Source: Actinomycetota bacterium
Lineage (GTDB): Bacteria > Actinomycetota > Actinomycetes > Propionibacteriales > Propionibacteriaceae
Assembly (NCBI GenBank): GCA_020161755.1
Contig: JAIUOS010000008.1
Span: forward strand, 62,001 to 126,000
Length of the DNA: 64,000 nt
Direction of reading: 5' to 3'
In this document: positions 29,323 through 51,580 of the stretch, in pieces
Layout: each line of letters starts with the position of its first letter
Position numbering within the stretch: the first letter of the stretch is position 1
The notes under the pieces: model-generated
What the model was told of the DNA's origin: nothing
Database searches by the model: none
The model's input: the letters and a program-made list of their open reading frames with translations, nothing else
Made by a program: the position numbers and the translations under genes

Positions 29323-32049
29323 TCAGCAGCCGTGGCGGGCGCGGCTGGCCTGTTCCTGGGCGCGGAACAGGGCGAAGCGGGGCAGGAACTTGTCCCAGTC
29401 GATGCTGTGCGCGTCGATCTCGGGGCCGTCGATGCAGGCGTGTCGGCGCACCAGCTTGCCGTCCGCGGTGACCGGCACCATGCAGGCGCCGCACATGCCG
29501 GTGGCGTCCACCATGATCGAGTTGAGGCTGGCCACGCACGGCACGGCGTAGGGCGCGGTGAGGTCGGAGACCGACCGCATCATCAGCGGCGGCCCGATCG
29601 TGACCACCTCGGCGATCGGACGCCCGGCGCCGTCCCGGGCGGCGTTCAGCAAGGCCTCGAGCGGCGTGGTCACGAAGCCCTGGACGCCGACCGAGCCGTC
29701 GTTGGTGGTGTAGACCACGTCGAGCTGCTCCCCGTACGCGGCCTGCAGGCGTCCGATGCGCTCCTCGGGGCCGTCCCAGAACATCAGGTCGGCGCTGCGG
29801 AACCCCGAGATCAGCGTGACGTGGTTCCCCAGCCGCAGGTGCTCGCGCAGGATCGGGTAGACCGGCGGCAGCCCCAGCCCACCCGCGGTGAACACGACGG
29901 TCGCGCCCTCGGGCGCCTGGTGCAGTTCGCTCGGACGGCCGAGCGGCCCGGCCACGCCGGCGAACGCGTCGCCCACCCGCATCGCGTTGATGCCGATCGT
30001 GCTGGCGCCCATGTTCTGCACCACCAGCGTGATCGTGCCGGCGTGGGCGTCCCAGTCGGCCAGCGTCAGCGGGATCAGCTCGCCGTCCGGCGTGGGCAGG
30101 ACGCGGACGAACTGCCCGGCGCGGGCGCTGCGTGCGATCACCGGGGCGCGGACGGTGAACTCCTCGATGCCCACGCTGAGGTGCTGCTTGGCCACGATCA
30201 CCGGCTGCTCGCCGGCCAGCTCGGTCCAGGCCAGCGCGCGCGCCACCCGCGCGGTGACCTCGGCCGGCTCGTAGTGCTCGAGCGTCCCGACGATCTCGCG
30301 GGCCGCGGACTGGCCGTCGCCGGCCGCGCGGATGGCTGTTGACCCGCCGCGGGCGGCATCCCCGCCGGTGTAGATGCCGTGCAGCGACGTCTCCTTGGAG
30401 TCCTCGGCCTGCTGGATCGTCCCGGCGGGCGAGGTGGCCAGCCGCGGCTCGGAGTCCTTGATGATCGGGTTGGCGGTGTTGCCCAGCGCCATGATCACCA
30501 GGTCGGCCGGCAGTTCGGCGGTGCGCCCGGTGGCGACCGGACGGCGGCGCCCGGACGCGTCCGGGTCGCCCAACCCCATCACCTCGACGACCGCGGTGGT
30601 GACGAAGCCGGTCTCGTCGCCGATGAACTCGACCGGCGAGCGCAGCACGGCGAGCTCGATGCCCTCCTCGAGGGCGTGCTCGAGCTCCTCGACGCGGGCG
30701 GGCATCTCGGCGCGGGTCCGGCGGTAGACGATCGTCACCAGCCCGCCCAGCCGGCGGGCGGTGCGCGCGGCGTCCATGGCGGTGTTGCCGCCGCCGATGA
30801 CCAGCACCTGCTTGCCCGCCGTGGCCGGCAGCGGCGTCTCGTGGTCGGGGGCGTGCGCCCGCATCAGGTTGACCCGGGTCAGGAACTCGTTGGCGCTCAT
30901 CACGTTGAGCAGGTGCTCGCCGGGCACGTTCAGGAACCGGGGGAGCCCGGCGCCGCTGCCGACGAAGACCTTGGCGAAGCCGGCGTCCCTGAGCTGCTCG
31001 AGGGTGGCCGTCCGCCCCACCACGAAGTTGGTCACGAACCGTCCGCCGAGCAGCCGGATCTTGGCCACCACGTCGTCGATCAGCGCGTTCGGCAGCCGGA
31101 ACTCCGGGATCCCGTAGCGCAGCACCCCGCCGAGCTCGTGGAACGCCTCGAACACCGTTACCGGGAAGCCCTCGGCCGCCAGCAGGTAGGCCGTGATCAG
31201 GCCGGACGGGCCGGAGCCCACGATGGCCATCGGCGGACGCAGCGCGGTCGCCCAGGGGTCGGGGATGCCGGCGAAGCGCGCCCGCGCGGCCTCGGGGTGC
31301 GCGACCTTCTCCCATTCCGGCAGGAACCACTCCAGCTGGCCGATCGACATCGACTGCTTGTGGATGCACATGCCCTGGCACTGCAGCTCCTGCGGGCAGA
31401 CCCGTCCGGTGACGTTGGGCAGGGGGTTGCACGACTCGAGCATCTCCAGCGCCTCGCGGAACCGGCCGGTGCCGATCAGTTCGAACATCTGCGGGATGTG
31501 GATCTGGACGGGGCAGCCGCCCTGCGGCTCCCGGTGGCCGGCCAGCAGGACGCCCAGTTCGCACGGCGCCTCTGCGCACTGCTTGTCGCGCAGGGCCTCC
31601 AGCCAGACGAACAGCTCGACGTCACGGCGGGTGTAGCCCAGGTCCATGTAGCCGAGGAACCCCTTGTTGACCAGCTCGAAGTCCTCGAACCGTTCCGACG
31701 GCTTGCGGATGTAGGGGCCGATCGCGTTCCCGGCCGGCCAGTTCTCGCTCAGGCCGGCGAACATCGGGTAGCGGCCCGACAGGTGCTCCGCCAGCGCCCG
31801 GATGAACATGCGCTTGCGGCCCAGCGGCAGGTTCCACAGGAACCGCATGATCAGCCGGCTGGAGTCGTCGTCGCGGCTCAGCACGTCCCACAGCTGCCGG
31901 GTGAACTTCGCGCTCAGCTCGGGCTGCCGGAACTCCCATGCCACCGCCTCCATGCCATCGGCGGTGAACAACTCGCGGAAGGCCCGCGGGTCGGCCACCA
32001 GCCGGCGCTCGAGGAGGCCGAGCTGGTTGCTGAACGACGGGCCGTTCAC
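29323..32049 (-). CDS. Fused GltD-PyrK (Nfn-like) FAD/NAD(P)/iron-sulfur oxidoreductase
   Basis: 908 residues from a GTG (VNGPSFSNQLGLLERRLV) overlapping the giant oxidoreductase stop as GTGA. Residues 1-180 are an N-terminal extension I do not recognise. Then come iron-sulfur cysteines (GGCPVQIHIPQ; CNPLPNVTGRVCPQELQC; GMCIHK), FAD site AIVGSGPSGL (about 275), NAD(P) site VLVIGGGNTAMDAA (about 418) and GGDAARGG, the GltD/NfnB architecture. From about 600 the PyrK/NfnA part follows, with a flavin-reductase fold (SARAGQFVRVLP) and a C-terminal [2Fe-2S] motif GMCGACMV...HACIDGPE. Nfn enzymes exchange electrons between ferredoxin, NADH and NADPH by flavin-based bifurcation. The order here (large part first) differs from the PyrK-GltD fusions I know. 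Bifurcation itself is inference. Confidence 0.85.
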   Translation of the reverse strand: MNGPSFSNQLGLLERRLVADPRAFRELFTADGMEAVAWEFRQPELSAKFTRQLWDVLSRDDDSSRLIMRFLWNLPLGRKRMFIRALAEHLSGRYPMFAGLSENWPAGNAIGPYIRKPSERFEDFELVNKGFLGYMDLGYTRRDVELFVWLEALRDKQCAEAPCELGVLLAGHREPQGGCPVQIHIPQMFELIGTGRFREALEMLESCNPLPNVTGRVCPQELQCQGMCIHKQSMSIGQLEWFLPEWEKVAHPEAARARFAGIPDPWATALRPPMAIVGSGPSGLITAYLLAAEGFPVTVFEAFHELGGVLRYGIPEFRLPNALIDDVVAKIRLLGGRFVTNFVVGRTATLEQLRDAGFAKVFVGSGAGLPRFLNVPGEHLLNVMSANEFLTRVNLMRAHAPDHETPLPATAGKQVLVIGGGNTAMDAARTARRLGGLVTIVYRRTRAEMPARVEELEHALEEGIELAVLRSPVEFIGDETGFVTTAVVEVMGLGDPDASGRRRPVATGRTAELPADLVIMALGNTANPIIKDSEPRLATSPAGTIQQAEDSKETSLHGIYTGGDAARGGSTAIRAAGDGQSAAREIVGTLEHYEPAEVTARVARALAWTELAGEQPVIVAKQHLSVGIEEFTVRAPVIARSARAGQFVRVLPTPDGELIPLTLADWDAHAGTITLVVQNMGASTIGINAMRVGDAFAGVAGPLGRPSELHQAPEGATVVFTAGGLGLPPVYPILREHLRLGNHVTLISGFRSADLMFWDGPEERIGRLQAAYGEQLDVVYTTNDGSVGVQGFVTTPLEALLNAARDGAGRPIAEVVTIGPPLMMRSVSDLTAPYAVPCVASLNSIMVDATGMCGACMVPVTADGKLVRRHACIDGPEIDAHSIDWDKFLPRFALFRAQEQASRARHGC

Positions 32050-35000
32050 CGGATGATCTCCGCGTCGCAGGTGGCCTTGACCCGGGTGATCCGCGCCGTC
32101 AGTTCGGTGGTCAGTTCCAGTCCGTCGAGAGCGTCCGGACGCATCCGGCCCACGGTCTGCGGATTGCCGTCCACCACGATCGTGGCCTTCTCGAACAGCT
32201 GCGGCAGCTCCTGGTAGCAGGTCGCGCAGTCGTTGCACCGGGGCAGGTCCTCGGCGTCGAGCCAGATCGGGCGCTCGTCGACCGCCACGGACGCCGGCGC
32301 CTCCTCGGCGGCCGGCGCGGCCAGCGGGGAGCCGAACAGGCCCAGGTGCAGCGGGCCGCCCGCGGGAGCGCCGCTGGCCGTGGCCAGGTCGGCCATCGCC
32401 TGGGCGATGGTGTCCAGCGCCGACTCGCGGGCCTCGATCGCTGCGCCGTAGCGGGACGTCCACTCGCCCACCTCGGCACGGTGCCGGGCCGAGAGCAGCG
32501 CCTCGGACTGGCCGGCGAGGAACTGCAGCGTCCGCCAGTTGCGGCGCCGGTCCTCGACGAGGGCGACGATGCTGTCCGAGCAGGCCATCTTCACCAGCCG
32601 GCGCTTGCGGTCGGTGGTGTGGACGAACGGCGTCCGGCCGGTGCGCTGGTGCAGCGGCAGCTCGACGTACTCGGCGATCGGCACCGCGCCGGCCTCCTCG
32701 TAGTTGGCCAGCCAGCGGAACTGGCGCGCGAACCGCACCTCGCCGATCGCGAAGTCGGCGGGGGTGAGCGGCATCGTCAGCAGTTGCAGCTGGCCGCGGT
32801 CGTCGCGGTAGGTGAGCGTGGTCTCGGTCCACAGCCCTTCGGGTTCGGGGTTGCCCTCGAGGCTGAACCGCTCCGACAGGTCGGCGCCGCGGCGCGGGTC
32901 GTGCACGAACAGCGGGAACACCCGGCTCTCCACGGCCAGCCGGGAGCGGGCGTTCGCGAGGTCCTCGGGCATGCCGTTCTCGGTGTCGCACGGCGCGTAG
33001 GCGATCATCAGCCCCGCGCCGTCGTTGTAGCCGATCAGGTCGGCGGACGCGCGCAGGAAGTGGCTGTGGAAGGCGGTCGCGGTCGCGCACACGTAGACGC
33101 CGGGATGGAACGCGGCGAGCAGGCCGAGCTCCTTGCGGCTCTCCAGCTTGCCGGCGTGGGCGCTGCCGTAGCGGGCGAGGTCGGCGTCCTGGCCGGCGAA
33201 GCTGGCCGTGGACGCCTGCCCGCCGGTGTTGGAGTAGCCGCCGGTGTCCAGCACGAGCGACTTGATCGGGGTGCCGCCGGCCAGCACCCGCGACATCGCG
33301 CCGAAGCCGATGTCGAAGGCCGCACCGTCGCCGCTGATCGTGAGCACCACCGGCACCAGCGTCCGCTCGGCCGGGGTGAAGTCCCGCCACGACAGCGTGG
33401 CCAGCGCAGCGTCGTGTAGTTCAGCGTCGTACGAATCGGTGAGTTCGAGTTCGGCGACGCGCAGCGCGCGCACCTCGGCGACCAGGCCGGAGACCAGGCC
33501 CTCGTAGATGCCCATGGCCAGCGGCTGGGCGTCCTGGAACAGGCCGTTCACCCACGGGTCGAGGTACGCCGAGTTCGGCATCGTGGACGCGTACACGCTC
33601 GAGCACCCGGTCGAGTTCGCCATCACCACGGGGGCGGGCCCGTCGCCGGTCGGCCCCGACTCGTACAGGTACAGGCGGCGCTCGAGTTCGGCGAGCGTCG
33701 CCGCCACCCGGTCGCGGCGCTCGCCCTCGGGCAGCCGGCCCTTCAGCTCGGCCAGGGCGTCCAGCGTGGTCTCCAGGTCGCGCAGGTGCGCCTCGCGGCG
33801 ATCCCGGCCGACCCGGTGGCTGAGCGAGTTCAGCAGGTGGATCGCGGTGACCTCACCGCACCCGCGGCAGGCCCCGTGGCCGCCGGTCATCGAGTAGTAG
33901 TCGTTGCGGGCGAGCAGGATGCGCTTGATGTCGCCGCCGGGTGCGGTCGCGTCCACCGTGACCCTGGCCGGGGTGTCCGGCAGCCGCGTGAGGCGTTCGA
34001 ACCGGGCCTCCAGCATGCCGAGCAGCACGTCGTCCTGGTCGGCGGTGGTGAGCGCGGCGGGGCCGCAGACGTCCACGCACTGGAGGCAGCCGGTGCACTT
34101 CCACGGGTCGACGACGGCGGAGAACAGGACGCCGGTGCCGGCGGACTGCTTCTCGGCCGCGTCGAACAGCGGACGGGTGCGCGCCACCGGGAAGGCGGCC
34201 AGCGCTCCCAGCACGTCGTCCAGGCGTCCCTCGTCGAGGTCGGGGACGGTGGCGAGCGACAGCTGGGTGGACGCCTCACGCGCCACCGCCGCCAGGTCGG
34301 TCGCCGACGAGGACGCGGCGTACCCGGCCCGGATCGCGTCCGCCCACGACGGCACCAGCCCGTACCACGGGCCGCGCTCGGCCTCGCTGAGCCCGGCGGC
34401 GTCGACCGCTGCACCGAGCAGGTCGCCGAGCTCGTGACCGGTGTTGGGGATCGCGTTGTCCGGGCAGGCCAGCGCACACTCCAGGCAGGCCGTGCAGGTG
34501 GACGCGTCGAAGACCGGGACGGTGCGCCGGAAGAGGCCCTTGTTCTTCGCCGCGCCGGTGCCGACCGGCATGAACAGGCCGGTCCCGGGCAGCACCGGGG
34601 CCTCGTCGACGGTGCCCTCCCGGAACGGGCGGGCGATCATCTCCTCGTAGTAGCCGGGGTCGAACAGGCCGCTGGTGCGCTCCCGCGTCACGCTGGGGGT
34701 CATCGCGCCCGACAGGGACGCGCGGACGCCGGTCAGCGCGGTCGCGCCCTCGGCAGCGACGAACGCCGGGTCGTCGTACTCGACGGACTGCGCCTTCATG
34801 CCGTCCCGGATCACGGCCAGGTTGGCCTCGATCACGGTCTCGCCCCGGCGTCCGAACTTCTTGGCCAGCTCGGCCCGCACCTCGGCCTCGGCGTGCCGGG
34901 TGTCGCCGCGGCTGATGCCGTCCACGTGGCCGAGGATCGCGCCGATGAACGCGATGCCCATCATCCGGGTCTCGAGTTCGGGGTTGGGGGCGTGTGCGCG

Positions 35001-37046
35001 CGCGACCGCGAAGGCGTCCAGCACCAGGAACCGGATCGACCGCTCGCGGATCACCCGGCGCGCGAAGGCCGGCAGTTCCTGCCACACCTGCAGCGGCGGC
35101 TTGTTCGACTGGAGGATCAGCGTCCCGCCGTGCACCAGCCCCTTCAGCGGGTTGGTGTGCGAGAAGACCTGGTGGTCGGGGGCGACCACGACCTCGACGT
35201 CCTCGAGCTCGGCGTTGGTGAGCAGCACCGGCTCGGGCGAGAGGGTGATGTAGTAGTTCGTCGACGCCCCGGACTTCTCCGACCCGTACTTCGGGGCCGA
35301 CTTGGAGTGCATGCCTAGCAGGGACGCGAGCACGTCGGTGAGCAGCTTGCCGGTCGCCACCGTGCCGTAGCCGCCGACCGAGTGGAACCGGATGCGCAGG
35401 GTGCCCGGTGCCAGGACCGGCGGGTTGGCGCCCGGGGTGAGCGCCATCAGCTCGGTCTCGGGGTAGGCGGCACGCAGGCGGTCCTGGATCGCGGCCACCG
35501 CCGGCGTGGGGTTGGCGGTGAAGAACTGCGAGCCCAGGTACACCAGCGGCGCGGGCGACGCCTTCGTCATGTTCTCGAAGGCCGCGACCGTGTAGCGGGG
35601 CTGGATGTCGTGCCCACCCAGTCCGAAGATCGCGGTGGTCATCCGCGGGATCGCGGGCAGGGCGGGGACGCCGGGGTACGGCGCGTCCGCCGACCCGGCC
35701 TCGGCGTTGGCCCGGGCGTGGAACAGGGCCTGGGTGACCAGACGGGTGAGAGCGGTGTCGTCCGAGCGTTCCAGGACCGTGACCGCCTTCGCGGTGCCGA
35801 GGGCCGCGACCAGCTCGGCCTCGGGGAACGGCTGGAGCAGCTTCACCGACACCACCCCGACCTTCAGGCCCTGCGCCCGCAGGTGGGGGAGCACCGCGCG
35901 GACGTCGTCGGTGATCGATCCCATCCCGACCATCACGTAGTCGGCGTCGGCGGTGTCGTAGGCGAGCACCGGTGCGTAGCTGCGTCCGGTCAGGTCGGAA
36001 TACTCGGCCATGGCCTGGCGCACCAGCTGCGGGACCGCGCCGGCGAAATGCGTCCGGTGGTCGGCGGAGCCGGCCTGGAAGTCGGGCTGGTTCTGCACCG
36101 GGCCGGTGAGACCGGGGTTGTGCGGGTCGACCAGGGCGGGGACGAGCTGACGGGTGCCGGCCGGCCAGCCGTTCAGCCACTGCCGCCGCCACTGCGACTG
36201 CCGGCCCACCGGCACATGTTGCAGCGTCTCCTCGACCAGTTCGCCGTCGTCGTCGGCCTCGATCCGGGGGCCGCGCGCCTCCAGCCAGCCGCGCAGTGCG
36301 GCCAGGTGGGCGGCGTCGAAGTCGTCGGCGTGCCGGTCCAGGTACCGCTGCAGCTGGAACACCCGTCCCTTCGCTCCGAACAGCAGGTCCTGCGCGACCG
36401 TCGGGCAGGGGATGCGTCCGGCCGGGTCGCCGAGGTAGCTGCGCAGCAGCTCGGGCTCGGGCAGCAGCACCTCGCTCATCACGTGGCTGGTCGCGAAGCC
36501 GTCCATCGCGTTGGCCACCGGGATCAGCGACAGCGCGGAGGTGCGGAAGGAGATCGCCGCGAGGTCGGCGGCCTCCTGCGGGTTCGACCCGAACAGGATG
36601 GTGTAGCCGGTCGGCAGCAGCGCGTAGACGTCGTCGTGGCCGGCCATCACGTTGAGGGAGTGCCGGGTGACGACGCGCGCCGCGACCTGCAGCACGAAGC
36701 CGCCGATCTTCTTGCCGACCGTGACGTAGTGCGACTCCAGCCCGTACAGGATGCCCTGGCTGGAGGAGGCGTTGGAGATGAAGTTGCCGCCCACCAGCGC
36801 CGCGCCCAGCGCGCCGCTCTGGGCGGAGTGCTCGCCCTCGGTCTCGACGAAGAACGGGTGCTTCCCCCACACGTTGAGCTGGCCCTCGGCACGGGCGGCC
36901 TCGAAGATCTCCGAGATCTCCGTGGACGGGGTGATCGGGTAGCCGATGACACCCCCGCAGACGTGCTTCATGACGTGGGCGACGGCACCGTTGCCGTTGA
37001 TCACGTCGGGGATGCCGGGGAACCGGACGGCGGCAGGTGCGGACAT
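32046..37046 (-). CDS. Giant 2-oxoacid (pyruvate):ferredoxin/flavodoxin oxidoreductase
   Basis: 1,666 residues against about 1,170-1,200 for normal NifJ. Domain I has YPITPST (about 36). An insertion of about 100 residues lies near 230-340 (QRYLDRHADDFD...). The gamma-type domain starts HSVGGYGTV (about 552). Ferredoxin clusters are CTACLECALACP (about 848) and CTGCLQCVDVC (about 982), 134 residues apart instead of about 55. TPP domain: GACRGCGE (about 1054), TGCSSVYAS, GDGAAFDIGFG (about 1235), YSNTGGQAS (about 1272) and the cysteine of YAPCDTENG, so all proximal-cluster ligands are present. About 300 extra C-terminal residues end in a ferredoxin-like CNDCATCYQELPQLF (about 1602) and KATCDAEII. 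CoA-dependent oxidation of a 2-oxoacid is expected; the substrate may not be pyruvate. Confidence 0.9.
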   Translation of the reverse strand: MSAPAAVRFPGIPDVINGNGAVAHVMKHVCGGVIGYPITPSTEISEIFEAARAEGQLNVWGKHPFFVETEGEHSAQSGALGAALVGGNFISNASSSQGILYGLESHYVTVGKKIGGFVLQVAARVVTRHSLNVMAGHDDVYALLPTGYTILFGSNPQEAADLAAISFRTSALSLIPVANAMDGFATSHVMSEVLLPEPELLRSYLGDPAGRIPCPTVAQDLLFGAKGRVFQLQRYLDRHADDFDAAHLAALRGWLEARGPRIEADDDGELVEETLQHVPVGRQSQWRRQWLNGWPAGTRQLVPALVDPHNPGLTGPVQNQPDFQAGSADHRTHFAGAVPQLVRQAMAEYSDLTGRSYAPVLAYDTADADYVMVGMGSITDDVRAVLPHLRAQGLKVGVVSVKLLQPFPEAELVAALGTAKAVTVLERSDDTALTRLVTQALFHARANAEAGSADAPYPGVPALPAIPRMTTAIFGLGGHDIQPRYTVAAFENMTKASPAPLVYLGSQFFTANPTPAVAAIQDRLRAAYPETELMALTPGANPPVLAPGTLRIRFHSVGGYGTVATGKLLTDVLASLLGMHSKSAPKYGSEKSGASTNYYITLSPEPVLLTNAELEDVEVVVAPDHQVFSHTNPLKGLVHGGTLILQSNKPPLQVWQELPAFARRVIRERSIRFLVLDAFAVARAHAPNPELETRMMGIAFIGAILGHVDGISRGDTRHAEAEVRAELAKKFGRRGETVIEANLAVIRDGMKAQSVEYDDPAFVAAEGATALTGVRASLSGAMTPSVTRERTSGLFDPGYYEEMIARPFREGTVDEAPVLPGTGLFMPVGTGAAKNKGLFRRTVPVFDASTCTACLECALACPDNAIPNTGHELGDLLGAAVDAAGLSEAERGPWYGLVPSWADAIRAGYAASSSATDLAAVAREASTQLSLATVPDLDEGRLDDVLGALAAFPVARTRPLFDAAEKQSAGTGVLFSAVVDPWKCTGCLQCVDVCGPAALTTADQDDVLLGMLEARFERLTRLPDTPARVTVDATAPGGDIKRILLARNDYYSMTGGHGACRGCGEVTAIHLLNSLSHRVGRDRREAHLRDLETTLDALAELKGRLPEGERRDRVAATLAELERRLYLYESGPTGDGPAPVVMANSTGCSSVYASTMPNSAYLDPWVNGLFQDAQPLAMGIYEGLVSGLVAEVRALRVAELELTDSYDAELHDAALATLSWRDFTPAERTLVPVVLTISGDGAAFDIGFGAMSRVLAGGTPIKSLVLDTGGYSNTGGQASTASFAGQDADLARYGSAHAGKLESRKELGLLAAFHPGVYVCATATAFHSHFLRASADLIGYNDGAGLMIAYAPCDTENGMPEDLANARSRLAVESRVFPLFVHDPRRGADLSERFSLEGNPEPEGLWTETTLTYRDDRGQLQLLTMPLTPADFAIGEVRFARQFRWLANYEEAGAVPIAEYVELPLHQRTGRTPFVHTTDRKRRLVKMACSDSIVALVEDRRRNWRTLQFLAGQSEALLSARHRAEVGEWTSRYGAAIEARESALDTIAQAMADLATASGAPAGGPLHLGLFGSPLAAPAAEEAPASVAVDERPIWLDAEDLPRCNDCATCYQELPQLFEKATIVVDGNPQTVGRMRPDALDGLELTTELTARITRVKATCDAEIIR

Positions 37047-44368: not shown

Positions 44369-44485
44369 GTGGGTGAGGGTACCCGGCCGGGGCCGCAAGG
44401 TATATCGGTTGGGCAGCCTTTTTTCGTTCAACCGCCAGAATTGTTCAAGAAATGTCGTTCGGACGTGCCAATCGCGCCATTTGTG

Positions 44486-44501
44486 TCCCCCTTTCGGGGG
44501 A
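44486..44501. promoter_or_regulatory. Hairpin in the leader region of the PPi-PEPCK operon
   Basis: TCCCCC-TTTC-GGGGGA, a perfect six-pair stem with a four-base loop, 132 bases upstream of the PEPCK start in a 265-base interval otherwise lacking genes. It could belong to an attenuating leader or to a divergent promoter; no T-run follows. Confidence 0.4.
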
Positions 44502-44633
44502 TAGTTGCGTTGCCCTGCGACGCCGCTCCGGACGGCCCGAAACGCTGCACAGGGCCGGCGCATCCGTCAACTTTGGGGCACCGTCGGCGAGACCGGTCAA
44601 GAGGCACCGGTGACCAGCGCCGACAATAGGGGC

Positions 44634-47600
44634 ATGGCCCAGATCGAACATGCCGCCATCTACCTCCGCCTCGCCCAGCTCGGCCTGCCGACGCCGGCCG
44701 GGGTGCAGGACACCGCGACCGCCCGCCTGGTGGCGCCGATCCTCGCCCGGCAGCGGGAGCTCAGCCGCCGCCTGGCCGACCGGCTGTGCGCGGCGGACGG
44801 GCGCATTCAGAACTGGCTGGACGACTACCTGGCCGACACCGGCCTCACCCCGCGGCTCCCACGGCGCACCTTCGTCCTCGACGAGCCCGGCCTGGCCCGC
44901 GCCCTGTCGCTGCCGGCCGACTCCGACGCTTTCTCGTCCCCGCTGCTGAGCAGCTACCGGCTCGCCAACGGCGTCCTGCACAACCCCGCCAACGACCGCC
45001 GCACCACCGCCGGCGTCTTCCACATCGCCGAGGGCGGCCTGCCGATCCCCGACGACAAGATCGCGGTGCCGAAGGCGGTCTTCGCGCGCCTGCTCGACCT
45101 GGCGTTCCAGCCGCCCCAGGACGCCTTGGTGCTGCCCTACACCGCCAACCAGGCCGAGCCCGCGGCCTGCTTCGTGTCGCTGCAGCTGCGTCCGCTGGTC
45201 GCCCCTGAGGTTCCCGGCTGGGTGCGCGAGAAGCGCATGGAGGCCCGGTTCATCGTGCCCGGCGGCCTGGTGGCGAACCTCGACTTCGTCGAGGGCATCT
45301 TCGGCAACGGCGGCGACCCCTACCTGCCCGAGCACGACGCGTCCCTGGCCCCGGAGACGTGGACGGGGCATACCGGCGCGGTGATCCTCGCCCCGCACCT
45401 GACCGCGGTGACCAAGAAGAGCCTCGGCCTGCCCCACGTCACCGAGGCGACCGACCGGCAGCGCCGCGACGGCCAGTGCTGGGAGGCCGAGGACGAGCTC
45501 TACAACGGCGGCCAGGCGTTCAAGGTGTGCGCGCGCGACGAGCGCGGCGTGATCGTCACCGTGATCGCCGACAACTACTTCGGCTACTGCAAGAAAGAGG
45601 TCAAGACCCAGATCAGCTACTCGGCGAACCTGTTCGGCAACGCCGAGGAGGAGCACGCCGGCGGCGCCCTGGTCTACCCCAGCTACAACCTCGGCCAGGA
45701 GTACACCGTGGCCCGCGCCGGTGACGGCTACGCCCTCGCTGACGTGCTCGCCCGCGACCCGGGACGCTTCGAGCCGCAGCCCGAGGGCCACGCCCTGGAC
45801 ACCGAGCAGCCGCACATCGTGCTGGTGCCGGAGTGCCCGACGTTCTCGCTGCGCACCCTGACGGCGAGCTGGACCAACCCCGACGGGGTGGAGGGCTCGA
45901 TCCGGCTGCGCGCGGACAAGACCTACCTGACGCCGGACGGCTACCAGGTGCGGATGGTCCAGCAGGTCGCCGACCGCACCCAGTGGAGCCTCGTCGGCAC
46001 CGTCGCCATGGCGACCAGCTGCCACAAGCCGGCCACGGTGTCGGGCGGCGGCAAGTCCGAGATCTCGAAGGCGATCACCGACGCGTTCATCTTCGGGAAC
46101 GCCTACTCCCCCGACTACGACGCCGACATGGACGCGGTGGCCGCGATCCTCGCCCGGGACTTCTCCGACCGTTTCGCCGACCCGGCGCAGCGCGGCCAGG
46201 ACCAGCGCGAGCTGCTCGCCGACGACCGCTCGATCGGCAGCGTGATCAAGCTGCTGACGCCGTCCACCGCCGAGTACACGCCCGAGTACAACGACTGGCT
46301 CGACTCGATCCCGCAGCACGTCAAGGAACTCGTGTTCGTGGTCAAGCGGTTCTACCGTCCCGAGTGGGGCGGCGACTGGCGCAGCCACTTCACCGTGGGC
46401 ATCATCAACGGCCGCCGGGGCATCAACCTGCGCCTGGACGGCGAGAAGATCATGGTGAACATGCTCCGGGTCGGTTTCGACACCGACGGGTCCTGGCGGC
46501 TGTTCGGCCTGCGGCACGACTTCAACCCCGCCGTGAAGGTGCAGACCGAGGACGACATCACCGCGTCCGTCGTGGTCGGGGGCCACATGCTGGGGCTGGA
46601 CGACTCCCGCTCCTACAAGCTGGTCGAGAACTGCGAGGAACTGCTGTTCCAGCGTCCGGACGACGCGATCCACCGCGGCTACGACAAGCAGGCCGAGGCC
46701 GACATCGCGTCCCCGGGCACGTTCCTGTCGAACTTCCAGCCGCTCGACCATGCCGACGCCGTCGAGATGGTGGACGACGCGGTGGCGTTCAGCCAGTTCA
46801 CCGAGCCGATGGCCAAGCTGATCAGCGACTTCGCGGCCGCGCCCGCCGACCGGTCGCCGGCCTACTTCGTCTCCTCGGCGAACCCGCGCCTGGTGGACGG
46901 CAAGCCGAGCAAGAACCCGCGCTACCTGCAGAAGCGGCCCGACCGCACCAACGCCGCCGCGACCGCGGTGGCCGACCTGGCCTCGCACCTGGTGCGGCGG
47001 CTGCCGTCCCACGACCCGCTGGCGCTGCCGGTGGACATCGTGGCGGCCGGACGGCGCAACAACCCGGCCGACGTGGGGGTGCCGCCGCTGTGCTCCTACA
47101 ACCCGCTGCACTACATGGAGCTGCCGGAGCTGTTCGCCGAGTTCATCTCCTCGATGACCGGCAAGTCGCCGTCCACCACCGGCGCGGGCTCCGAGGGTGC
47201 GATGACCAAGGGCCCGTTCAACGCGATGCCCGCGGTGCTCGACCTGAACGCGGCGCTGCTGTCGTTCGCGCTCACCGGCTACGACGGCTGGGTGTCCTGC
47301 GCGGGCACCGTCGGGCCGCAGGTGCGCGTCGACCACGACATCTCGATGCTCGTGCCCGAGGTGTTCTCGCGGATGACCCCGAGCGAGCGAACGGCGTCCA
47401 ACCTGGTCGCCGAGGGCGCCCTGGAGCGGATCTGCGACAGCGAGCACGACGGGCAGAAGGTGCTGGCCAGCCGGCTCGGCTACCGCATGACCCAGGCGTT
47501 CGCGCGCAAGTACTTCGGCCGGATCTTCCTGCACCCGCACGCGGTGTTCACCCCGGAGATGCTGCGTCCCGAGCTGCAGGACCCGGCGGTGTTCGCCGAG

Positions 47601-48020
47601 TCGGTGGCGACGATCGTGGCCACGCACGAGCGGGTGGCGAAGGCGTACTTCGACGACGGCACCGTCTCGCTGGCGATCCCGCCGCTGCGGGCGCTGCTCG
47701 AGATCATGGCGCACGGTGCCTCCGCGGAGGGCTGGACGCTGGAGACCCCGGAGTTCCGGGCCCTGTTCGAGCGGGGATCGATCCTCGCGTCCGACTGGTA
47801 CGCCGCACGGCTGGACGCCAAGCAGCGGGCGGCGGCCAACCGGGCCGACGCCGGACTGAAGGCGCTGGAGAAGTTCATCTCCACCCCGGGCAACGAGGAG
47901 CCGTCCCAGCGCCTCGACGTCCCCGGGCGCATCGAGGCCGCCCAGGCCGAGTACGACAAGTTCAGCAGCGCCGGCTACCGCGAGGGCATCATCGGCACCG
48001 TCGGCCGCCAGCCGCTGTGA
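44634..48020 (+). CDS. Pyrophosphate-dependent phosphoenolpyruvate carboxykinase (PEP carboxytransphosphorylase)
   Basis: 1,128 residues from ATG 44634 (MAQIEHAAIYLRLAQLGLPT), chosen because upstream codons lie in the leader and AGGGG precedes it. Length and sequence fit the very large PPi-PEPCK known from Propionibacterium and Entamoeba (EC 4.1.1.38: PEP + CO2 + Pi = oxaloacetate + PPi), which is unrelated in length to ATP- or GTP-PEPCK. A glycine-rich phosphate-binding loop, SGGGKSEISKA, lies at about 470-480 and a second conserved region, TGAGSEGAMTKGPFNAM, at about 848-864. The stop overlaps the GTG of nifJ. The assignment rests on recall of the family and on metabolic context; if wrong, this is an uncharacterised large cytoplasmic protein. 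Confidence 0.75.
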   Translation: MAQIEHAAIYLRLAQLGLPTPAGVQDTATARLVAPILARQRELSRRLADRLCAADGRIQNWLDDYLADTGLTPRLPRRTFVLDEPGLARALSLPADSDAFSSPLLSSYRLANGVLHNPANDRRTTAGVFHIAEGGLPIPDDKIAVPKAVFARLLDLAFQPPQDALVLPYTANQAEPAACFVSLQLRPLVAPEVPGWVREKRMEARFIVPGGLVANLDFVEGIFGNGGDPYLPEHDASLAPETWTGHTGAVILAPHLTAVTKKSLGLPHVTEATDRQRRDGQCWEAEDELYNGGQAFKVCARDERGVIVTVIADNYFGYCKKEVKTQISYSANLFGNAEEEHAGGALVYPSYNLGQEYTVARAGDGYALADVLARDPGRFEPQPEGHALDTEQPHIVLVPECPTFSLRTLTASWTNPDGVEGSIRLRADKTYLTPDGYQVRMVQQVADRTQWSLVGTVAMATSCHKPATVSGGGKSEISKAITDAFIFGNAYSPDYDADMDAVAAILARDFSDRFADPAQRGQDQRELLADDRSIGSVIKLLTPSTAEYTPEYNDWLDSIPQHVKELVFVVKRFYRPEWGGDWRSHFTVGIINGRRGINLRLDGEKIMVNMLRVGFDTDGSWRLFGLRHDFNPAVKVQTEDDITASVVVGGHMLGLDDSRSYKLVENCEELLFQRPDDAIHRGYDKQAEADIASPGTFLSNFQPLDHADAVEMVDDAVAFSQFTEPMAKLISDFAAAPADRSPAYFVSSANPRLVDGKPSKNPRYLQKRPDRTNAAATAVADLASHLVRRLPSHDPLALPVDIVAAGRRNNPADVGVPPLCSYNPLHYMELPELFAEFISSMTGKSPSTTGAGSEGAMTKGPFNAMPAVLDLNAALLSFALTGYDGWVSCAGTVGPQVRVDHDISMLVPEVFSRMTPSERTASNLVAEGALERICDSEHDGQKVLASRLGYRMTQAFARKYFGRIFLHPHAVFTPEMLRPELQDPAVFAESVATIVATHERVAKAYFDDGTVSLAIPPLRALLEIMAHGASAEGWTLETPEFRALFERGSILASDWYAARLDAKQRAAANRADAGLKALEKFISTPGNEEPSQRLDVPGRIEAAQAEYDKFSSAGYREGIIGTVGRQPL

Positions 48021-51000
48021 CCGGGCAACCACCCACCCGCGCCACCATCGACGGGAACGAGGCGGCCGCCCGGGTGGCGCACGCGCTGAGCGAGGTGCTG
48101 GCGATCTACCCGATCACGCCGTCCTCGGCGATGGGGGAGTCGGCGGACGCCTGGTCGGCGGCCGGCCGCACGAACCTGTGGGGCGGGGTGCCGGAGGTCG
48201 TCGAGCTCCAGTCGGAGGCCGGAGCGGCCGGCGCCCTGCACGGCGCGCTCACCAAGGGGGCCCTGGGCGCCACGTTCACCGCGTCCCAGGGGCTGCTGCT
48301 GATGCTGCCCAACATGTTCAAGATCGCCGGCGAGCTCACCCCGGCGGTGATCCACGTCGCGGCGCGGACGGTGGCCACGCACGCGCTGAGCATCTTCGGC
48401 GACCACTCCGACGTGATGGCCGCCCGCACCACCGGCTGGGCGATGCTGTGCGCGTCCAGCGTGCAGGAGGCGCACGACTTCGCGCTGGTCGCGCACGCCG
48501 CGACGCTGCGCTCCCGGGTGCCGTTCGTCCATTTCTTCGACGGGTTCCGCACCAGCCACGAGGAGAACACGATCGAGCTGCTGGCCGACGCCGACCTGCG
48601 GGCGCTGGTGCGCGAGTCGGACGTGCTTGCCCACCGGGCCCGCGGCCTGACGCCGGACGCGCCGGTGATCCGCGGGGTGGCCGAGAACCCGGACACGTTC
48701 TTCCAGGCCGCCGAGGCCGCCAACCCGTTCCACTTCGCCGTGCCCGACGTGGTCGCGAAGGTGTTCGACGAGCTCGCCGGGCGCACCGGACGCCGCTACT
48801 CCCTCGTCGACTACCACGGCGCCCCGGACGCCGAACGGGTCGTGGTGGCGATGGGGTCCGCGTCCGGCTGCCTCGCCGAGACCGTGGACGAACTGGTGCG
48901 CCGCGGCGAGAAGGTCGGCATGGTCACGATCCGGCTGTTCCGCCCGTTCCCGACCGAGGCGTTCCTGGACGCGCTGCCGGCCACCGTCCGTTCGATCGCC
49001 GTCCTCGACCGCACCAAGGAGGCCGGCGCCCCCGCCGAGCCCCTGCACGCCGACGTCCTCGTCGCGCTCTCCCGGCGACCGAGCGAGGGGGTGCACCCTC
49101 GCGTGATCGGCGGACGCTACGGGCTGTCGTCCAAGGAGTTCACGCCGCAGATGGCGAAGGCGGTCCTCGACGAGCTCGCCGCGGACAAGCCCAAGCCGCG
49201 GTTCACCGTCGGCATCGTCGACGACGTCACGCACCTCTCGCTCACCCCGGACGCGACGTTCCGCGTCCCCGACGAGCACCTCTCGGCGGTGTTCTTCGGG
49301 CTGGGCTCGGACGGCACCGTCGGCGCGGCGAAGAACTCGGTGAAGATCATCGGCGAACAACCGGACGCGTTCGCGCAGGGCTACTTCGTCTACGACTCCC
49401 GCAAGTCCGGCGCGGTCACGGTGTCACACCTGCGGTTCGGCACGACGCCGATCCGGGCCACCTACCTGGTCGACGCCGCCGACTTCGTCGCCGTCCACCA
49501 GTTCGAGCTGCTCACCTCGATGAAGACCGTCGACGTGGCCCGTCCCGGCGCCACGTTGCTGCTGAACTCGCCGTACGGCGAGGACACCTGGGAGCACCTC
49601 CCGGTCGAGGTGCAGGCCGAGATCGCCGACAAGCAGTTGCGCACCTGGGTGATCGACGCCGAGGCGGTGGCGAAGGCCGCCGGCCTGGGCAAGCGCATCA
49701 ACACCGTCATGCAGCCGTGCTTCTTCTACCTGTCCGGGGTGCTGCCGGCCGACGAGGCGGTGGCGGCGATCAAGGTGGCGGTCGAGCAGACCTACGGCCG
49801 TCGCGGCCGGACGGTCGTCGAGCGCAACTTCGCCGCGATCGAGGCCGCCATCGCGGCGCTGCGTCCGCTGCCCGCCGCGCTGCGTCCGTCCAGCCGCACC
49901 CACCGGCTGCCGCCGCTGCCGGCCGAGGCCGGCGACTTCGTCCACCGTGTCACCGGGGTGATGCTGCACGGGCAGGGCGACCTGTTGCCGGTGAGCGCGC
50001 TGCCGGTGGACGGCGCGTGGCCGACCGGAACGTCGAAGTGGGAGAAGCGCGGGCTGGCGGCCGAGCTGCCGATCTGGGACGCCTCGCTGTGCATCGACTG
50101 CGGCAAGTGCGCGGTGGTCTGCCCGCACTCCGCGATCCGGATCAAGCTGGCCGATCCGGCCGACCTCGCCGGCGCCCCGGAGGGCTTCCGGCACAAGGAG
50201 TACAAGGATCGCCAGCTGCCCGGGAAGCGCCTGGTCGTGCAGGTCGCGCCGGACGACTGCACGGGCTGCGGCATCTGCTCCGACATCTGCCCGGCCCGCT
50301 CGAAGAGCGAGTACAAGCACAAGTCGCTCGACATGGAGCCGGCGCGCGAGCACCGGGACGCCGAGCGGGCGAGCTTCGACTTCTTCCTCGGCCTGCCGGA
50401 GATCGACCGGACGCTGGTGCGCCACGACCAGGTGAAGGGCGTCGCCCAGCTGCAGCCACTGTTCGAGTTCTCGCTGGCGTGCTCGGGCTGCGGCGAGACG
50501 CCCTACATCAAGACGCTCACCCAGCTGTTCGGCGACCGGATGATCATCGCGAACGCGACCGGCTGCTCGTCCATCTTCGGCGGCAACCTGCCCACCACGC
50601 CGTACACGACCAACGCGGACGGCCGCGGCCCGGCCTGGTCGAACTCGCTGTTCGAGGACAACGCCGAGTTCGGGCTGGGCACGCGGGTCGCGCAGGACCT
50701 CCAGCACGCCGAGGCGCGGCGCCTGCTCGCGTCCCTGCGCAACGAGGTCGGCCACGAGCTCGCCGACGCCCTGCTGGACGCCGACCAGTCCGGCGAGACG
50801 GGGCTCGCCGCCCAGCGCGAGCGGGTCGCCGCGCTCAAGGGGCTGCTGGCTGCGCATGTCGCACAGAACCCGCCGGCCGCGCGGCTGCTGTCGCTGGCCG
50901 ACGAGCTGGTCGACAAGGCGGTGTGGATCATCGGCGGCGACGGCTGGGCGTACGACATCGGGTACGGCGGCCTCGACCACGTCCTCAGCAGCGGGCGCAA

Positions 51001-51580
51001 CGTGAACATCCTGGTGCTCGACACCGAGGTGTACTCCAACACCGGCGGGCAGGCGTCCAAGGCCAGCCCGCGCGGCGCGACGGCGAAGTTCGCGACCGCG
51101 GGCAAGCCCACCGCCAAGAAGGACCTCGGCGTGCTCGCGCAGGCCTACGGCGACGTCTACGTCGCGCAGCTCGCGATCGGCGCCAACCAGCAGCAGACCG
51201 TCCGGGCGATGCTCGAGGCGCAGGCGTGGCCCGGCCCGTCCCTGCTGATCGCCTACTCCACCTGCATCGCCCACGGCATCGACATGGCCACCTCGATGAC
51301 CCACCAGTCCGACGCGGTGGCCAGCGGCTACTGGCCGCTGTACCGCTTCCGTCCGGGCGAGGGCGGGACGCCGCTGCACCTGGACAGCAAGCCGCCCACG
51401 ATGCCGGTGCGCGATTTCATGATGAGCGAAGCGCGTTTCGCCATGCTGGCAAGAGCAAATCCGAAACGCGCGGAGGAATTGGCACAACTCGCACAGGCGG
51501 ACACCGACGAACGCTGGCACTATTACTCGCAACTGGCCGGTATGGAACGCGGCGTACCGGCGGTCAAGGAGGAATCATGA
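48017..51580 (+). CDS. nifJ: Pyruvate:ferredoxin/flavodoxin oxidoreductase
   Basis: 1,187 residues, the normal NifJ size, from GTG 48017 overlapping the PEPCK stop. Domain I: YPITPSS (about 32) and AARTVATHALSIFGDHSDV. Gamma domain: FGLGSDGTVGAAKNS (about 418). Two [4Fe-4S] clusters: CIDCGKCAVVCP (about 692) and CTGCGICSDICP (about 748). TPP domain: ACSGCGE (about 821), TGCSSIFGG, GDGWAYDIGYGG (about 974), EVYSNTGGQASKA (about 1003) and the proximal-cluster Cys in STCIAHG. It catalyses pyruvate + CoA = acetyl-CoA + CO2 + reduced ferredoxin or flavodoxin. It is co-translated with PPi-PEPCK and a DHOD-like protein. Confidence 0.96.
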   Translation: MTGQPPTRATIDGNEAAARVAHALSEVLAIYPITPSSAMGESADAWSAAGRTNLWGGVPEVVELQSEAGAAGALHGALTKGALGATFTASQGLLLMLPNMFKIAGELTPAVIHVAARTVATHALSIFGDHSDVMAARTTGWAMLCASSVQEAHDFALVAHAATLRSRVPFVHFFDGFRTSHEENTIELLADADLRALVRESDVLAHRARGLTPDAPVIRGVAENPDTFFQAAEAANPFHFAVPDVVAKVFDELAGRTGRRYSLVDYHGAPDAERVVVAMGSASGCLAETVDELVRRGEKVGMVTIRLFRPFPTEAFLDALPATVRSIAVLDRTKEAGAPAEPLHADVLVALSRRPSEGVHPRVIGGRYGLSSKEFTPQMAKAVLDELAADKPKPRFTVGIVDDVTHLSLTPDATFRVPDEHLSAVFFGLGSDGTVGAAKNSVKIIGEQPDAFAQGYFVYDSRKSGAVTVSHLRFGTTPIRATYLVDAADFVAVHQFELLTSMKTVDVARPGATLLLNSPYGEDTWEHLPVEVQAEIADKQLRTWVIDAEAVAKAAGLGKRINTVMQPCFFYLSGVLPADEAVAAIKVAVEQTYGRRGRTVVERNFAAIEAAIAALRPLPAALRPSSRTHRLPPLPAEAGDFVHRVTGVMLHGQGDLLPVSALPVDGAWPTGTSKWEKRGLAAELPIWDASLCIDCGKCAVVCPHSAIRIKLADPADLAGAPEGFRHKEYKDRQLPGKRLVVQVAPDDCTGCGICSDICPARSKSEYKHKSLDMEPAREHRDAERASFDFFLGLPEIDRTLVRHDQVKGVAQLQPLFEFSLACSGCGETPYIKTLTQLFGDRMIIANATGCSSIFGGNLPTTPYTTNADGRGPAWSNSLFEDNAEFGLGTRVAQDLQHAEARRLLASLRNEVGHELADALLDADQSGETGLAAQRERVAALKGLLAAHVAQNPPAARLLSLADELVDKAVWIIGGDGWAYDIGYGGLDHVLSSGRNVNILVLDTEVYSNTGGQASKASPRGATAKFATAGKPTAKKDLGVLAQAYGDVYVAQLAIGANQQQTVRAMLEAQAWPGPSLLIAYSTCIAHGIDMATSMTHQSDAVASGYWPLYRFRPGEGGTPLHLDSKPPTMPVRDFMMSEARFAMLARANPKRAEELAQLAQADTDERWHYYSQLAGMERGVPAVKEES

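Follow-up and report, generated by a model that had tools for sequence, protein, structure and literature searches.

A stretch of 64,000 nucleotides from an actinomycetotal genome of the family Propionibacteriaceae (assembly GCA_020161755.1, contig JAIUOS010000008.1, positions 62,001 to 126,000 of the forward strand; hereafter the window) encodes a long relative of the NifJ-type pyruvate:ferredoxin oxidoreductases (PFOR), P0001, that seems to carry a ferredoxin of its own. The last ~65 residues of this protein, which follow a linker predicted to be disordered, resemble a single-cluster ferredoxin, and the gene is followed by one for a fused NADH-dependent ferredoxin:NADP+ oxidoreductase (Nfn). 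The explanation that we favor, with a probability of roughly 70%, is that P0001 is a PFOR-type 2-oxoacid oxidoreductase equipped with its own ferredoxin and coupled to a ferredoxin:NAD(P) oxidoreductase encoded beside it. The enzyme core, the catalytic residues, the cluster cysteines, the tail, the identity of the partner and the gene linkage can all be read from the sequence. The products of PFOR usually rely on a free ferredoxin that is common to many enzymes, and the arrangement described here suggests a hard-wired electron path in place of such a free carrier protein.

The long PFOR and its ferredoxin-like tail

The open reading frame (ORF) of P0001 is intact, with 0 internal stops, and its product follows the domain order of NifJ (POR_N, PFOR_II, POR, two Fer4 and the thiamine pyrophosphate (TPP) domain) according to Pfam and phmmer together (Table 1). 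The Fer4-type Pfam matches lie near residues 843-865 and 970-1004, and the TPP domain is traced by phmmer to residue ~1395-1405 against the solved structures 6cin and 7plm; no Pfam match to TPP_enzyme_C was obtained in P0001 at an expectation value (E) of 0.1. Solved structures matched with phmmer are the PFORs of Moorella (6cin, E 1.1e-80) and Desulfovibrio africanus (1b0p/7plm, E 5.5e-71). An initial annotation of this DNA had stated that all catalytic signatures of NifJ are present, which alignment with NifJ bears out: T39, E72, R124, D1240, G1241, N1273, G1275 and 12 cluster cysteines stand at NifJ positions and are common to 8/8 rows of the clade linked to Nfn, 9/9 rows of a sister clade linked to Rnf (see below) and 6/6 NifJ rows. 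The catalytic, substrate-binding and cluster-binding roles of these residues are those that we take them to have in NifJ. Among 84 distinct full-length proteins (1,643-1,704 amino acids, P0001 counted once), all cysteines of the Fer4 clusters (eight) and of the proximal cluster (four) are invariant, as is C30, while the residue that follows the last cysteine of cluster B (residue 995, giving Cys-Gly) is glycine in 82. These proteins come from 91 loci, seven of them duplicates, at which the match ran from query residue 12 or earlier to at least 1660, a length filter that leaves out truncated loci and locus L024, discussed below. Because the same architecture recurs in these 84 proteins and in the sister clade, an assembly frameshift or fusion artefact was rejected.

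The best NCBIfam match of P0001 is the NifJ equivalog TIGR02176, with 367.1 bits, so far under the cutoff of 911.35 that the protein is PFOR-like and not a member of that equivalog. None of the 25 best of its 54 NCBIfam matches is above its cutoff; plain membership of an existing PFOR subclass was therefore discarded, and the counterpart in a well-described PFOR subclass that the initial annotation had considered as a refutation does not appear among those matches.

In the AlphaFold2 model, the C-terminal tail consists of a pair of short helices followed by a beta hairpin and a final helix, with block values of the predicted local distance difference test (pLDDT) of 85-91 for residues 1590-1666, behind a linker of low confidence (39-44 for residues 1560-1589). 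This confident fold speaks in part to the other refutation named in the initial annotation, a modeled C-terminus lacking a cluster-binding geometry. Its four cysteines, C1604, C1607, C1610 and C1660, are arranged as C-x2-C-x2-C-xn-C and are invariant in 84/84 distinct full-length proteins; among these are the 14 rows that were found independently of a tail-derived search pattern, each of which keeps all four. A profile built from 29 tails matches the putative ferredoxins 7m1o (E 1.6e-4, positions 2-65 of 68) and 7m1n (E 2.5e-4, positions 2-64 of 68), and a profile of 10 sister-clade tails matches ferredoxin I of D. africanus (1dax, E 3.4e-11). In the sister clade, the tail of Gemmatirosa (locus L108) exceeds the Pfam cutoff of Fer4_13 (39.2 vs 24.5 bits) and that of L109 falls narrowly under it (24.4 vs 24.5 bits). 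The early suggestion that this extension is a tethered ferredoxin or a docking module is thus supported by the invariant cysteines, the profile matches to ferredoxins, the confident model and the retention of the tail beside both Nfn and Rnf genes. In our best reading of these sequences, the tail would be a built-in ferredoxin passing electrons to the co-encoded Nfn or Rnf.

Neighboring oxidoreductase genes

The partner gene and the PFOR gene overlap, the GTG start of the former sharing bases with the TGA stop of the latter. The partner protein passes the curated cutoff of NF009415 (1586.1 vs 1519 bits) and its best solved relative is NfnI, both subunits of which are matched (5jca_L, E 3.8e-103; 5jca_S, E 1.2e-63); ~147 N-terminal residues lie outside this match. 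Residues C158, C163, C179, C218, E221, C224, C228, D848, C853, C856 and C872, which are presumably cluster ligands by analogy with Nfn, are invariant in 68/68 partner rows. Of the seven canonical cluster cysteines the NfnL part has six, and near its first cluster there is a longer, variable loop. In a scripted comparison of 97 testable loci, which include that of the window (L001) and near-identical pairs (seven duplicates) after three contig-end loci were skipped, the partner gene is directly downstream on the same strand in 96 (gaps of -7 to 230 bases). The 97th is L024, where the partner is present by inspection and a deletion in the tail upsets the gap estimate of the script. A wider conserved operon around the pair was considered and rejected: an all-against-all comparison of flanking ORFs of at least 180 amino acids in 80 loci (L028-L107), counting families present in at least 5 loci, returned besides the partner only two recurring families, both ABC ATPases (ATP-binding cassette; 13 and 5 loci). 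No Rnf genes were recognized beside the PFOR gene of the window. At two loci a second Nfn-like match lies near the PFOR-Nfn pair (L094:18551-19372 and L090:18756-19880).

An exchange of the neighboring genes is seen in distant relatives of P0001 (32-38% identity), which keep the tail and are without the insert that P0001 has after domain I. Gemmatirosa kalamazoonensis and Persicobacter psychrovividus carry such relatives on large replicons. Together with those of eight Pseudomonadota genomes, i.e., genome G714 and seven more of its order (8/150 searched), these two make up a clade of 10 loci linked to Rnf, in which the C-x2-C-x2-C-xn-C motif is found in 10/10 tails. In all ten loci rnfC is directly downstream of the tailed PFOR gene; the run rnfC-D-G-E-A is found in nine, with L136 reaching the contig edge after rnfC, and rnfB is directly upstream in nine, the exception being L109. 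In the nine loci with rnfB upstream, the tailed PFOR gene lies between rnfB and rnfC, as at L120:6331-12165, L134:6559-12425 and L108:4376-10398. In NCBIfam, the products of rnfC, D, E and A at L109 and that of rnfB at L120 score above their respective cutoffs; rnfG of L109 scores under its cutoff (86.4 vs 102 bits), and the Rnf genes of the other sister-clade loci were identified by tblastn with the L109 and L120 proteins. Gemmatirosa also has genes for KorA and KorB, which precede rnfB and the tailed PFOR gene. An unrooted tree of 37 proteins, made by a quick method and including the columns of the shared extra regions, separates Nfn-linked (16), Rnf-linked (9 of 10) and NifJ (12) proteins by branches with support of 99-100. 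Both Nfn and Rnf are ferredoxin:NAD(P) oxidoreductases, with ferredoxin as common substrate, but they belong to two different types of enzyme. The main argument for the tail acting as a ferredoxin is that this carrier-like domain is kept while the neighbor changes from Nfn to Rnf.

A split arrangement

A related tail also occurs outside the long PFORs. Gene runs at two loci of Pseudomonadota (L139, in the Propionivibrio soli genome that also holds L073, and L140, in the Xanthobacteraceae genome of L099) encode an NfnL-like protein, a KorA-type alpha and a KorB-type beta subunit, and a tail-bearing protein of ~740 amino acids akin to the C-terminal portion of the tailed PFORs. This last protein retains the tail but has lost, at the aligned positions, the catalytic residues and most of the cluster residues. 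The only Pfam match of these proteins is Fer4_13, under its cutoff (23.9 and 20.9 vs 24.5 bits), and the only solved structure matched by the L139 protein is D. africanus ferredoxin I (E 7.9e-5). Judged by these features, the ~740-residue protein resembles a separate adaptor that would provide an oxidoreductase of the 2-oxoglutarate type with a ferredoxin. No split tail protein was found at E 1e-80 in 299 Pseudomonadota genomes, a result of little weight because this set has no demonstrated positive.

Further insertions

Lengths were compared from anchor to anchor between P0001 and ordinary NifJ proteins, taken from its own genome (P0004, L141) and from one of Pseudomonadota (L143). After domain I there are 96 residues in P0001 vs 12 in NifJ (~+84), between clusters A and B 124 vs 47-48 (~+77), in the C1063-C1148 loop of the TPP domain 86 vs 26 (~+60), and from C1353 to the C-terminus 314 vs 105-108 (~+209). 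The first two values agree roughly with the ~100 and ~80 residues of the initial annotation, whose estimate of ~300 extra C-terminal residues was too high and which had missed the fourth added region, the ~60-residue helical hairpin inside the TPP domain. AlphaFold2 models of parts of P0001 were built from alignments of 67 and 53 sequences, and with both of them Foldseek ranks PFORs first and also returns related enzymes. The insert after domain I, which the Nfn-linked clade has and the Rnf-linked and NifJ rows compared do not, is modeled as helices 228-291 (block pLDDT ~95 for residues 231-290), in a cut-out model in which residues 29-137 have a pLDDT <50. The insertion between the clusters is likewise modeled as helices, and residues 866-975 searched alone had no match in Pfam; that of the TPP domain is modeled as a helical hairpin (1064-1104/1109-1129).

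Table 1. Coordinates of the long PFOR, its parts and related genes, numbered along the window unless a locus is named.
Feature	Position	Strand	Basis or remark
Ferredoxin-tailed PFOR/NifJ-type 2-oxoacid oxidoreductase (P0001)	32046..37046	-	1,666 amino acids, ATG start
Domain I (POR_N), residues 31-201	36444..36956	-	Pfam; T39, E72, R124 conserved
Helical insert after domain I, ~residues 227-298	36153..36368	-	alignment and model
PFOR_II, residues 367-428	35763..35948	-	Pfam
Gamma-type POR domain, residues 557-749	34800..35378	-	Pfam
Ferredoxin-type cluster A, C851/C854/C857/C861	34464..34496	-	Pfam and conserved cysteines
Helical insertion between clusters A and B, ~residues 870-970	34137..34439	-	AlphaFold2 and alignment
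Ferredoxin-type cluster B, C984/C987/C990/C994, then Gly995	34065..34097	-	Pfam and conserved cysteines
Proximal-cluster ligands C1060 and C1063 (presumed)	33858..33869	-	conservation in alignments
Helical hairpin inserted in TPP domain, ~residues 1064-1130	33657..33857	-	AlphaFold2 and anchor lengths
Proximal-cluster ligand C1148 (presumed)	33603-33605	-	conservation in alignments
TPP-binding domain core, ~residues 1231-1395 (GDG 1239-1241, SNTGGQ 1272-1277)	32862..33356	-	phmmer
Proximal-cluster ligand C1353 (presumed)	32988-32990	-	conservation in alignments
Ala/Pro-rich linker, ~residues 1556-1592, predicted disordered	32271..32381	-	AlphaFold2
C-terminal single-cluster ferredoxin-like domain, residues 1600-1666, C1604/C1607/C1610/C1660	32049..32249	-	conservation, profiles, model
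Partner: NfnL-NfnS fusion, 908 amino acids, ~147 extra N-terminal residues	29323..32049	-	NCBIfam, structure match
Ordinary NifJ of the window	~48008-51367, in ORF ending 51580	+	one of three in the genome
~740-amino-acid tail-bearing protein	L139:6306-8507 and L140:5801-8038	-	related to C-terminal part of tailed PFORs

Occurrence and sampling

The long-PFOR family is widespread but patchy. In a collection of genome contigs, 378 pattern matches yielded 365 confirmed relatives, the best 80 of which were used. These 80 include Actinomycetota (Propionicimonas, Cellulomonas, Demequina, Kineosporia, Micropruina and others) and Pseudomonadota (Rhodopseudomonas, Rhodovulum, Rhodoferax, Accumulibacter and others). 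The patterns were six peptides, one of which (CNDCATCY) derives from the tail, so that the collection set leans toward tails like that of P0001; the 14 rows from Propionibacteriaceae mentioned above and the loci of the 299 Pseudomonadota genomes and of the 150-genome order were chosen independently of CNDCATCY. Within Propionibacteriaceae, the family of the source genome, the long PFOR is present in 26/97 genomes and 8/29 genera at E 1e-100. Among 346 Actinomycetota genomes only the gene of the window itself reaches E 1e-60, and among the 299 Pseudomonadota genomes ten match at E 1e-200, nine of them across the full length; the neighboring genes were inspected for part of these ten (G442, through L086, and G593, G577, G470 and G714).

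Besides the long PFOR, its genome encodes three ordinary NifJ proteins, i.e., the copy of the window, L141 and L142. As to the window copy, two other candidates were set aside: ORF 44445-48032 on the reverse strand has no family match, and the forward-strand translation of 44505-48020 is not NifJ-like. The NifJ gene of L141 has a GltD/NfnL-like neighbor, resembling the propionibacterial arrangement described below.

Proposed electron transfer model and alternatives

From these features we infer the type of the clusters, the electron path, the substrate, the direction of the reaction and the dispensability of a free ferredoxin. In the proposed model, a 2-oxoacid, most likely pyruvate, would be cleaved with coenzyme A (CoA) at the TPP core. 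The electrons would leave TPP for the proximal cluster, travel along the two ferredoxin-type clusters and reach the ferredoxin domain of the presumably flexible tail, which would hand them to the partner. Stoichiometry and direction are taken from the known chemistry of Nfn and Rnf. With Nfn as partner, the net reaction would be pyruvate + CoA + NADH + 2 NADP+ -> acetyl-CoA + CO2 + NAD+ + 2 NADPH, and in the reverse direction the same pair might carry out NADPH-driven pyruvate synthesis. In the sister clade, Rnf would be the partner, yielding NADH and an ion gradient.

Several observations weigh against this model. The window tail alone stays under the Pfam cutoffs (Fer4_15, 18.5 vs 22.4 bits; Fer4_13, 15.3 vs 24.5 bits). 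The tail profiles of the two clades match each other in their first half, at only 57% probability and E 1e-4, and a joint alignment places their fourth cysteine in different columns. At L024 (5900-6260; genome G021) an in-frame gap removes the linker and the CxxCxxC of the tail and leaves the final helix and last cysteine; the tail may be dispensable there, or this copy may be defective or misassembled. In the partner, the first cysteine group reads C158-x4-C163-x15-C179 vs C-x2-C-x6-C-x3-C in canonical NfnL, and the L chain of 5jca (residues 42-56 by alignment) has one cysteine more than this group. Since one NfnL cysteine is without counterpart, the outer cluster of the partner may be unusual and bifurcation is not assured. 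Finally, gene adjacency falls short of proof of a complex.

Two points make pyruvate the likeliest substrate: the enzyme retains the residues of NifJ, and in Gemmatirosa it is paired with KorAB. The assignment is less certain in view of the loop that follows R124, which reads LLPTG in P0001 vs ARQTG or ARTTG in NifJ, and a substrate other than pyruvate (2-oxoglutarate, 2-oxobutyrate or another 2-oxoacid) would explain why three ordinary NifJ copies are kept in the same genome. This variant leaves the wiring unchanged, so it is compatible with our preferred explanation, and we consider it unlikely: T39, E72, R124 and N1273 are as in NifJ, the KorAB genes upstream of the tailed enzyme in Gemmatirosa leave pyruvate as a natural complement, and Rhodopseudomonas palustris JSC-3b has no second NifJ-like protein at the thresholds used.

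It is also conceivable, although rather improbable, that the tail binds a cluster as a fixed docking or relay element in a permanent complex, with free ferredoxin still serving as physiological or parallel acceptor. The tail is conserved together with the partner genes, as such a complex would have it, and an extra docking surface is plausible given the insert after domain I, exclusive to the Nfn-linked clade, and the N-terminal partner region outside the 5jca match, both of which are candidates for such a surface. However, the linker of ~30 low-confidence residues before the tail fits a mobile domain better, and the ~740-residue tail-bearing protein beside KorAB suggests a transferable carrier. 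Least probable, and very unlikely, is that the C-terminal extension is structural, e.g., for oxygen protection, a role reportedly played by domain VII of D. africanus PFOR, and that the enzyme is otherwise an ordinary ferredoxin-dependent PFOR: although ~140 of the ~209 residues added at the C-terminus lie outside the ferredoxin-like part and most of the ferredoxin part is absent from L024, the four invariant cysteines in ferredoxin spacing, the matches of the tails of both clades to solved ferredoxins and the ferredoxin:NAD(P) oxidoreductase genes adjoining in both clades argue against it.

If such a PFOR does carry its own ferredoxin, with its gene next to those of Nfn or Rnf, low-potential electrons would be directed to one destination, which could permit NADPH- or ion-gradient-driven pyruvate synthesis in facultative bacteria. 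A broader picture, in which we have somewhat less than even confidence, is that of a cross-phylum group of self-contained 2-oxoacid:NAD(P) oxidoreductases, in which a fused ferredoxin would replace the free carrier and the output module would be swapped between the soluble, bifurcating Nfn and the ion-pumping membrane complex Rnf. In a third, split form, a TPP domain that has lost its catalytic function would serve as scaffold for a related ferredoxin, next to KorAB and an NfnL-like protein. In the opposite direction, these systems might act as NADPH- or ion-gradient-driven pyruvate synthases, many of the hosts being not strict anaerobes. Current annotation hides the system, as the enzyme is above no cutoff among the 25 best of its 54 NCBIfam matches and the partner family NF009415 bears the name glutamate synthase beta subunit/polyprenylphenol hydroxylase.

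Relation to known systems

With the NifJ/PFOR enzymes (TIGR02176; 6cin, 1b0p, 7plm), P0001 has in common the domain order, the TPP and substrate residues, the proximal cysteines and the two clusters. It differs from them in being ~470 residues longer, with four added regions that include a third ferredoxin-type domain, and in the linkage of its gene, or that of its relatives, to Nfn or Rnf genes. The partner covers both NfnL and NfnS of the NfnAB/NfnSL enzymes (5jca, 4ylf); unlike these it has L and S in one chain, ~147 added N-terminal residues and one cysteine of the L part without counterpart. The genes of the Rnf complex (rnfBCDGEA) flank the sister-clade enzyme, in contrast to the gene of the window.

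Two other solutions connect 2-oxoacid oxidation to pyridine nucleotides. In the pyruvate:NADP+ oxidoreductase of Euglena and Cryptosporidium, a PFOR is fused to a flavodoxin/P450-reductase module. A built-in electron exit toward NADP+ would be common to this enzyme and P0001; a fusion of the same kind was nevertheless rejected for P0001, in which no flavodoxin or P450-reductase domain is matched in Pfam. Phenylglyoxylate:NAD+ oxidoreductase (PadEFGHI) is a 2-oxoacid oxidoreductase that yields NAD(P)H directly through a GltD-like protein. The PadG, PadI and PadE models of NCBIfam match below cutoff, and PadEFGHI consists of separate small subunits, unlike the long PFOR; we know of no ferredoxin tail in this enzyme.

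The open-licence literature searched, outside which most subscription papers lie, yielded no account of a PFOR with a ferredoxin tail, nor of one encoded between rnfB and rnfC. No PFOR appears among the rnf gene orders in the accessible part of a survey of these (PMC3534657), and a report on acetate-grown Rhodopseudomonas deals with a pyruvate:ferredoxin oxidoreductase route, the long protein not being described in its available text (PMC8307300). The nearest precedent is the nifJ1 system of Propionibacterium, in which, according to the accessible portion of the article, separate genes, NfnB-like and dihydroorotate-dehydrogenase-like, flank nifJ1, a complex is proposed and a knockout crippled growth; neither the length of that enzyme nor a tail is mentioned there (PMC7650540). 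The scheme presented in that portion uses quinols, unlike our proposal for the window, and it has in common with the window pair the idea of a PFOR working with an Nfn-like partner, in related bacteria (PMC7650540).

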